In this document: piece after piece, positions 29,645 through 32,491 of the stretch
Layout of the letters: each line of letters starts with the position of its first letter
Numbering within the stretch: the first letter of the stretch is position 1
Program-made: the position numbers and the translations under genes
Notes under the pieces: model-generated
Told to the model about the DNA's origin: nothing
The model's input: the letters and a program-made list of their open reading frames with translations, nothing else
The model's database searches: none
Origin: Crocinitomicaceae bacterium
GTDB lineage: Bacteria; Bacteroidota; Bacteroidia; Flavobacteriales_D; Crocinitomicaceae
Direction of reading: 5' to 3'
Assembly: GCA_020832365.1 (NCBI GenBank)
Contig: JAFIEX010000010.1
Coordinates: 1 to 32,499 of the forward strand
DNA: 32,499 nt

Positions 29645-29956
29645 GGTAAATTTTTGACAAAAATAATATTTAATAGAAATAACAACATAAAAATAAGTGA
29701 ATGTATGATAGTTAGAAATATTCTTGTCCATCAAAAAATGAAATTAGCGCATTTTTTATGGGTTTTCTTTTTTAGCACAAGTAGCTAATTTATAAAGTTT
29801 TATCCGATATTTTTCATTTACAAACGAATATTTATCGACAACAATCATTTAAAAACCGAATGATTTTTTGAAGCCGCCCCAACTTTGCATCGTCAAACGC
29901 TGAAAGACAGCACAACGACAGTAACTAGTTCAAATTATTAATTAAAATTTACAGAC

Positions 29957-30304
29957 ATGAACACGTTAAAAAACACAGTGAGTTTGATTGGAAACTTAGG
30001 AAAGGATCCAGAATTAACAACGCTTACAAGCGGGAGTAAATTAGCAAAGTTTTCTATTGCGACAAACGAGTCTTACAAAGACAAAAACGGACAGTGGGCA
30101 AACACTACGCAATGGCACAATGTTGTAGCATGGGGAAAAACTGCTGAATTAGTCAATCAAGTACTTAAAAAAGGGGCCGAAGTAGTCCTTGAGGGCAAGT
30201 TAGAAAATGATTCCTACACGGACAAAGAAGGAGCCAAGCGTTATATCACACAGATCAACTTGAGAGAGTTTATGCTCATCCGTAAAGAGGAGCAGAAAAA
30301 ATAA
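29957..30304 (+). CDS. ssb: Single-stranded DNA-binding protein (short OB-fold form) 1
   Basis: NTVSLIGNLGKDPELTTLTSGSKLAKFSIATNESYKDKNGQWANTTQWHNVVAWGKTAELV...KGAEVVLEGKL; lacks acidic C-terminal tip. Confidence 0.93.
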   Translation: MNTLKNTVSLIGNLGKDPELTTLTSGSKLAKFSIATNESYKDKNGQWANTTQWHNVVAWGKTAELVNQVLKKGAEVVLEGKLENDSYTDKEGAKRYITQINLREFMLIRKEEQKK

Positions 30305-30319
30305 TGCACCTTCAATTTT

Positions 30320-30344
30320 GAGGGGGATTACTCCCCTCTCTTTT
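30320..30344 (+). terminator. Candidate weak terminator/attenuator hairpin between SSB 1 and SSB 2
   Basis: GAGGGG-GATTACT-CCCCTC (30320-30338) followed by TCTTTT. Confidence 0.5.
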
Positions 30345-30375
30345 CAATTATTTACACCTTTTAAAAACAATAGTT

Positions 30376-30705
30376 ATGACAGTTTCACAAATGAACCACG
30401 TAAACCTAATTGGTCAAATGTCAAGTGACCCGAAGGTAATTCAACTGAATAATGGCAAAAAAATCGCTCGTTTTTCACTTTCCACAAATGAAACCTACTT
30501 AGATGAGGAAGGCAACATGAAAAATATTCAAAATTGGCACCGCATCACTGCATGGGGCAAATGGGTACAAATTTTGGAACAACTAGGGCAAAAGGGTCAA
30601 GCACTTGCCATCGAAGGAAAGCTGAGATCACGCTTTTTTCAAGATGCATCTGGAGGTAAAAAAGCTTTTACAGAGGTAGAAATCAACGATTTAATTATTT
30701 TATAA
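30376..30705 (+). CDS. Single-stranded DNA-binding protein (short OB-fold form) 2
   Basis: NHVNLIGQMSSDPKVIQLNNGKKIARFSLSTNETY...NWHRITAWGKWVQILEQLGQKGQALAIEGKL; ends after OB fold (EINDLIIL). Confidence 0.9.
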   Translation: MTVSQMNHVNLIGQMSSDPKVIQLNNGKKIARFSLSTNETYLDEEGNMKNIQNWHRITAWGKWVQILEQLGQKGQALAIEGKLRSRFFQDASGGKKAFTEVEINDLIIL

Positions 30706-30720
30706 ACTAAACCAGTAATT

Positions 30721-31038
30721 ATGAAAAATCAAGTTCAATTAATCGGAAATTTAGGAATGAATCCTGAAATCACCAATTTCGAAAGTGGTGCAAAAAAAGT
30801 AAGATTTACACTTGCCACAAACGAATCCTTCAAGTCAAAGGATGGCACAACTGAGCAGAAAACCTTTTGGCACAACCTACAAGCATGGGGCTCCACGGCA
30901 AGCTATCTAGCAAAAGTCGGTAAAAAAGGGGCGCAAGTTGCTATCACTGGAAAACTTGTAACTCAGCGTTACAAGAGTAAAGATGGTTTGCCTAAAAAAT
31001 TTACAACCATCGAAGTAAACCAAGCCGTTGTTTTATAA
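30721..31038 (+). CDS. Single-stranded DNA-binding protein (short OB-fold form) 3
   Basis: NQVQLIGNLGMNPEITNFESGAKKVRFTLATNESF...FWHNLQAWGSTASYLAKVGKKGAQVAITGKL; ends EVNQAVVL, no acidic tail. Confidence 0.92.
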   Translation: MKNQVQLIGNLGMNPEITNFESGAKKVRFTLATNESFKSKDGTTEQKTFWHNLQAWGSTASYLAKVGKKGAQVAITGKLVTQRYKSKDGLPKKFTTIEVNQAVVL

Positions 31039-31098: not shown

Positions 31099-31132
31099 AC
31101 ACCCAGAGCAACTATCTCTGGGTGTTTTTTTT
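31099..31132 (+). terminator. Intrinsic terminator of the SSB cluster, overlapping the 3' end of the convergent gene
   Basis: Perfect 10-bp stem ACACCCAGAG (31099-31108) / CTCTGGGTGT (31116-31125), 7-nt loop, then T run. Confidence 0.9.
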
Positions 31133-32491
31133 ATGGTTTAGCGCATTAAGTACCATTTTTGGTATGACCGAATCTTTCAAAAGGCCTCCTGTAAACGTAA
31201 TAGAGCTTCCAGCAAAAACAAAGCCACCACCAGGATGATCATAATAAGTCAAATAAGCTCCTCCGTTTTTATCCGCTTCTTCATCACCCAATTGTGTTAA
31301 GCGCTGCTTGTTCAATCCTTCTGCCAATAAAACAATGTTTTCCGCTGAATACTGCGTAATTTTATCTGTTTCGTCTCCACTTGCCCATCCCCCATGCACG
31401 CTTTCACCAAACAAATCTCCTTTTTTTAAAGTTACTCCATCAAAGAGCCAATGCTCAGGGTTCACTACCATAAAAGGCGCATAAGTTCCTGCCCCGGCCG
31501 GGGTGTACTGCGTGCCTAAAACAGCAGATTCTGGTCTACCTAAGTTTCGCCAAGTACCTCCGGCAGACTCATCGTGTTTATGAACATGCTTATGTGTACC
31601 ATATTTTACACATTCCATTTGCTCCCCAGCTTCATCATAGGTCACTTTCCAATAAATACCGTTGCCAGATAAATAAAGTAAGTTGCCACCGTTGTTCAGG
31701 TAGTCCTCTAAATGATTATACATCTTTTCCGACCAATATTCCCCATGACAATGAATCACTAAAAAAGGATAAGTTTTTGGGTCAATGGATTGATGGTGGA
31801 AATCTGGATCCGTAATTACATCAAAATCAATGTTTTCTTTTTCTAACCAGTGGGTTAAATTTAACTCGCCCTCAAAACCACCTTTTTGGTAAGGCATGTT
31901 TCTAAACGTATAAAGCGGTCGATGAAAATGAACGAAAGAGGACAATGTTTGATCACAATCATATTTTAAATTATACCTGTAAAAAGACGCTCCTCCAGCA
32001 ACATTATAGGCTTGCCAAGTATTATAAGAGGCTATAACTAAGATATCACCATTTTTAGTGGCAGGCTGAACAGCGATAGGAATTCTGAATGATGTGTCAC
32101 CGACATTCAAATCCACACTATAGTAGCCAGATTTTAATTCTTTTGGAAGTTCAAATGAAAAAGTTTTATCCCAATTATAACCTAGTTTATAACCACATTC
32201 ATTAATGTTCTGTTTGGTGGCATTGTTGTTTTGATAATGCAAGACCGTGTCTTCCTCCAAGGTATGATGTACCAAGAAAACATCAACCATTGTCGACTTA
32301 GAATGAATATACAAGTCAACTATTTCAGATGGGAAATAAGAAGGTTTGTCCGCATATCCCTCAACCTCCCTGTTGTTTTCGTAGCTCACTTTCACATCAC
32401 AAAAACAATCTTCTAGATACCCCTTTTGCTTGCAAGCCGATATGATGAGCAAGCTAAAAACAGTACAAATAATTTTTTTAAACGCAACCAT
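31112..32491 (-). CDS. N,N-dimethylformamidase large-subunit-like lipoprotein
   Basis: 459 aa; lipobox-like LLIISAC; ILVIASYNTWQAYNVAGGASFYRYN, YPFLVIHCHGEYWSEKMYNHLEDYLNNGGNLLYLSGNGIYW, resembling the DMFase beta-subunit C-terminal-like family. Confidence 0.7.
   Translation of the reverse strand: MVAFKKIICTVFSLLIISACKQKGYLEDCFCDVKVSYENNREVEGYADKPSYFPSEIVDLYIHSKSTMVDVFLVHHTLEEDTVLHYQNNNATKQNINECGYKLGYNWDKTFSFELPKELKSGYYSVDLNVGDTSFRIPIAVQPATKNGDILVIASYNTWQAYNVAGGASFYRYNLKYDCDQTLSSFVHFHRPLYTFRNMPYQKGGFEGELNLTHWLEKENIDFDVITDPDFHHQSIDPKTYPFLVIHCHGEYWSEKMYNHLEDYLNNGGNLLYLSGNGIYWKVTYDEAGEQMECVKYGTHKHVHKHDESAGGTWRNLGRPESAVLGTQYTPAGAGTYAPFMVVNPEHWLFDGVTLKKGDLFGESVHGGWASGDETDKITQYSAENIVLLAEGLNKQRLTQLGDEEADKNGGAYLTYYDHPGGGFVFAGSSITFTGGLLKDSVIPKMVLNALNHKKNTQR

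Follow-up and report, generated by a model that had tools for sequence, protein, structure and literature searches.

What lies at the locus?

The window, by which we mean the whole stretch of 32,499 nucleotides that was analysed, carries at 29957-31038 three consecutive genes for SSB-type OB-fold proteins; a sequence-only reading had proposed as much, and both the open reading frames and the matches to PF00436, which score 115.9-83 bits against a cut-off of 26, bear it out (Table 1). The genes lie where that reading placed them, but the functional unit starts about 140 bp further upstream, with a conserved operator and promoter at about 29813-29898. Pairwise identity among the three proteins is 35-46%, ssb2 being the most distinctive copy. 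Their description as tail-less also holds, in that the Gly/Pro linker and the acidic tip (DDDIPF-like) are missing from each: ssb2 (...EVEINDLIIL) and ssb3 (...EVNQAVVL) stop at the last OB strand, and ssb1 ends in a short basic stretch (...RKEEQKK). In E. coli SSB, residues W40, W54, F60 and W88 stack on ssDNA. At the positions of E. coli W40, W54, H55, F60 and W88 the window copies read YWHWY, YWHWF and FWHWY, with an aromatic residue at every ssDNA-contacting position in all three, and the W40 position varies among ssb3 orthologs. No known RNA family was matched near the array, and defence-system models gave no match.

Table 1. Features of the ssb array, its upstream region and its downstream neighbour, in window coordinates
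Feature	Position	Strand	Details
Operator	29813-29862	+	Row of AWMCG-type sites; cores at 29825 (CG), 29836 (CG), 29846 (CA), 29857 (CG)
Promoter box (-7) CAACTTTGCA	29880-29889	+	TTTG at 29884; TTTG invariant in alignment
Leader start	29890-29918	+	Conserved TGTCGA-like stretch (TCGTCAA in window); T85 and C86 invariant in alignment
Small leader hairpin	29899-29911		GCTG-AAAGA-CAGC, at the start of the ssb1 leader
ssb1	29957-30304	+	115 aa; PF00436 E 1e-33; own orthologous group
Terminator-like hairpin, possible attenuator	30320-30338	+	ssb1-ssb2 gap; pattern scan; weaker than operon-end terminator
ssb2	30376-30705	+	109 aa; PF00436 E 1.8e-23; group support 100; alignment A1
ssb3	30721-31038	+	105 aa; PF00436 E 1.4e-24; group support 94; alignment A2
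Operon-end terminator	31099-31132	+	10-bp stem, then T run; pattern scan
Converging gene	31112-32491	-	Putative lipoprotein; C-terminal N,N-dimethylformamidase-like domain (PF20254)

Are the three genes distinct, and how widespread are they?

A triple array had been thought less ordinary, but within Crocinitomicaceae this is not so. Named relatives (Brumimicrobium, Fluviicola, Lishizhenia and Taishania) place the genome in this family. Of the family genomes examined, 21 have the three ssb genes in identical order, and three SSBs are found at 79 of 80 named loci, a figure that measures the completeness of the array rather than the frequency of ssb2, by which the 80 loci were picked. Copy number ranges from one to three, several genera having two ssb genes and two genomes one. 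The array is thus ubiquitous within the family, and it does not appear to be already characterised, in that the open-access papers searched yielded no earlier description of it. In a tree of 113 proteins, built on a short alignment and with many of its forks unresolved, ssb2 groups with two orthologs from two-copy genomes (support 100), ssb3 forms a separate group (94) and ssb1, with two further orthologs from two-copy genomes, a third (91), all well apart from the canonical SSBs (99). The suggestion that the copies are subfunctionalised is therefore supported by this phylogeny, with three orthologous groups kept in fixed order across many genera. One could still argue that the copies serve gene dosage, as redundant duplicates with no roles of their own, since fold and contact residues are the same in all three and copy number varies; however, each copy belongs to a separate ortholog group and shows a conserved signature in its sequence, unlike recently amplified copies, and we regard dosage as a highly improbable explanation.

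Does the array replace the replicative SSB?

Almost certainly it stands beside it. The assembly is 3.13 Mb in 325 contigs and 98% complete, and what we say of this bacterium's own genome is the outcome of searches in it. These found two further SSBs, a full-length one on contig C123 and a divergent SSB-like protein on C248. The first has the acidic tip DDDDDVLPF and is closest to the canonical SSBs of Crocinitomicaceae (88/112 residues); it bears out the earlier view that the array is not the replicative SSB and, because a canonical SSB is encoded elsewhere, the array is accessory. The C248 protein (L005:1387-1821; 144 aa) is strongly diverged, has the acidic end TIDEDDF and lies beside a coproporphyrinogen-oxidase-like gene.

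What drives the array?

Upstream regions of the ssb arrays align with almost no gaps. Plain DNA comparison of this region with its own genome gave just short, chance-level matches, and a profile search was therefore used. Profile R1 matches the window at 29813-29898 with E 2.8e-19, and the profile, which uses sequence only, turns up a single full-length copy in almost all genomes, located at the ssb array. Across the order, 121 of 249 genomes have a match, and these genomes represent nine families or more. Most of the genomes are drafts, and a restricted number of candidates is scored in each of them, so that weak sites can escape; matches weaker than E ~1e-3 mostly resemble chance. What is conserved is a rigid geometry: in an alignment of 28 genomes the operator cores follow one another at steps of 11, 10 and 11 bp, and the same geometry is kept in 77 of 78 named loci, with steps off by one base in a few families. 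At about 10.5 bp per step, all sites fall on one face of the helix. The third core is CA in the window and CG or TG in relatives. Of 78 named loci, 77 keep a distance of 25 nt from the last core to TTTG, in what we take to be the Bacteroidota -7 box, and this fixed position just upstream of the core promoter would suit an activator.

Phased repeats of this kind might instead be intrinsically bent, A-rich promoter DNA rather than protein sites, and the A-rich spacers at about 10.5 bp speak for such a reading. The conserved positions, however, are CG cores and single A positions, not A-tracts, and full copies are nearly unique in each genome and common to functionally related genes, which leaves bent DNA with very little to recommend it. 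We are very nearly certain of a narrower joint claim, namely that this is an ancient, accessory array with a conserved promoter dedicated to it. Folding analysis gives the small hairpin at the start of the leader a weak signal, with a mean z of -1.3 across 77 leaders; its stem sequence changes among many relatives, and control at the RNA level is possible.

Which other genes share the operator?

Matches away from ssb genes were taken at E<=1e-4; an additional copy of the ssb promoter, which sits at the end of a G038 contig, is not counted among them. A single type of tyrosine recombinase follows directly on four of these matches (G017, G007, G198 and G237), RecQ follows on another (G185, E 1.5e-8), and one, in G062 (E 5e-8), stands before a small ORF that is followed by a PIF1-like helicase; two have no evident target (G023, inside a gene, and G195). 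The same geometry precedes two more recombinases (G048, E 1.4e-4, and G030, E 1.5e-3, a broken gene), which brings the genomes with the operator at this XerA-like recombinase to six; the RecQ and PIF1-like sites are single cases each. At these promoters the last core lies 24-25 nt from TTTG, counted by eye. As a negative control, housekeeping Xer genes were inspected, and none has the operator upstream. The recombinase promoters of G003, G025 and G037 were tried as the same operator and rejected, as their sites are arranged differently, in steps of 12 bp. What unites the targets is single-stranded or branched DNA.

The sequence-only reading had offered competence, recombination or stress as settings for the array. 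Recombination is favoured by an operator common to the recombinase, RecQ and the PIF1-like helicase; a link to the competence genes tested, dprA and comEC, is not supported. B. subtilis SsbB is tail-less, and the array proteins share that form, with 3vdy among their matches. Of the 15 genomes tested, all have ComEC and 14 have DprA, so the operon could in principle coat DNA imported by transformation and be controlled together with the uptake genes. The operator is nevertheless absent near dprA (14 loci) and comEC (15 loci), and the lone strong match near comEC (G033, L277) proves to be the operator of the ssb array, at a distance of about 1 kb. On the evidence of these two genes we therefore rejected a competence regulon and think SsbB-type competence SSBs a rather unlikely reading of the array. 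G033 is the one genome in which comEC precedes the array by about 1 kb, a placement probably due to chance.

An operator of a damage regulator, with ssb, recQ and integrase as SOS-like targets of accessory SSBs, also deserves a hearing. Predictions for some Bacteroidetes place ssb and recQ among the SOS targets (PMC8565304), and integron integrases are under SOS control in other bacteria, according to a reference listed in that paper. The known Bacteroidetes boxes, CTAA-N5-TTAG and GGA-N5-TCC, are on the other hand palindromes, and neither has a match within 29735-29956, for which reason an SOS box was rejected for the ssb promoter; phased direct sites at a fixed upstream distance would also fit an activator better than a LexA-type repressor. 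SOS control of the array thus seems to us distinctly unlikely.

What is the recombinase behind the operator?

The recombinase scores 231.7 bits against the XerA model NF040815, above its cut-off of 220, and 203.7 bits against the IntI model TIGR02249, below its cut-off of 265; about 45 residues of IntI4 have no counterpart in it, the IntI-specific domain being missing. Genome G003 is complete, and there about 33 attC-like repeats of about 178 bp each come after the recombinase, spread over 30 kb. The R' end of a repeat is complementary to the preceding R'' flank at 5.4 of 6 bases (2.9 for its own, 2.7 for others), the trace expected from cassettes inserted at G^TT, and the longest ORF points in the same direction in 26 of 29 intervals. 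A candidate attI, an inverted repeat followed by GTT, lies directly after the recombinase in G003, G237, G007, G198 and G017, and the first attC end fits it in G003 and G237. Folding of the attC strand, assessed on one strand, is not significant (z -0.8), so that the claim of an integron rests on the repeats and the cassette boundaries. By its structure, as read from these repeats and boundaries, the G003 locus is an integron with a non-IntI recombinase, and its recombination activity is putative. At least two cassettes are present twice in the G003 array (L239:5000-20000 and L251).

G003, the clearest integron, is not among the six genomes with the shared operator; what ties it to that operator is the orthology of the recombinase together with G237, where a cassette with a matching first attC end comes right after the operator-bearing gene. 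Repeats that follow the recombinases of G056, G026 and G014 on the 3' side are not attC-like, and those downstream of the G037 recombinase look attC-like and are few in number. The search of the window's own genome found no such recombinase. In several relatives (L199, L212, L215, L218, L219 and L229) the gene has stop codons or is truncated, a pattern suggestive of an integron in decay beside an ssb array that is kept. Because the recombinase is absent or decayed in many array-bearing genomes, the window's own included, the array is not integron-specific and, since this genome and several relatives keep array and operator intact without the recombinase, the SSBs must have a role beyond the integron. 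Complete integrons have been reported rarely in Bacteroidetes (Salinibacter ruber, PMC9024848), and our search of the open-access literature found no paper that treats Crocinitomicaceae and integrons together. E. coli SSB binds and opens folded attC sites (PMC8946536), which makes a link between specialised SSBs and integrons sensible, the link itself being putative.

What might the operon do?

We think that the array belongs to an accessory ssDNA-handling regulon under a putative activator, and put the probability of this at roughly 0.55. A putative regulator would bind the phased sites, which face one side of the helix immediately before the promoter, and, judging by the fixed distance to the -7 box, would activate that promoter. 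The operon would then yield three specialised OB-fold proteins that coat ssDNA but would be unable to use the acidic SSB tip for docking partners. The regulator may, in some relatives, also drive the integron recombinase, RecQ and the PIF1-like helicase, and the operon probably protects or presents ssDNA during recombination, be it the capture of incoming DNA or repair, working next to the replicative SSB rather than replacing it. Here we infer the activator, its signal, the coating of ssDNA in vivo, the assembly of the SSBs and the physiological process. A wider formulation, for which we would not claim even odds and which we put forward tentatively, is that of a Flavobacteriales ssDNA regulon in which a putative activator on phased sites couples tail-less SSBs to integrons with XerA-like (non-IntI) recombinases, an overlooked class.

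The reasons why a bacterium should have several SSBs are largely open outside the known competence SSBs, and three specialised copies, kept together throughout a family behind one rigid, recognisable promoter, make their role directly testable. The operator is also a handle for finding the regulator, and it exposes Bacteroidota integrons whose recombinase falls below the cut-off of the standard IntI model.

How does the array compare with known systems?

Like canonical SSB (PF00436, TIGR00621; E. coli 1eyg), the three proteins have the OB fold, pass the family cut-off and keep the aromatics; unlike it, they have neither linker nor acidic tip, stand three in tandem behind a dedicated operator and coexist with a separate canonical SSB. 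They resemble B. subtilis SsbB (3vdy) and the third SSB of S. aureus (PMC5945547) as extra short SSBs beside a full-length one, and differ in being three, in belonging to another phylum and in having an operator that neither dprA nor comEC shares. With the Bacteroidetes SOS regulon (PMC8565304) they share ssb and recQ among the targets, whereas the operator is a phased direct array at a fixed distance from the -7 box rather than CTAA-N5-TTAG or GGA-N5-TCC. Finally, the G003 locus is like sedentary chromosomal integrons in its many attC-like sites, with each R'(n+1) complementary to R''(n), in ORFs running mostly in one direction and in a candidate attI; it is unlike them in that the XerA-like recombinase is without the IntI-specific insert, that the candidate attI and the array lie on the 3' side of the recombinase gene, and that the window's genome, as searched, keeps the tail-less SSBs without such a locus.
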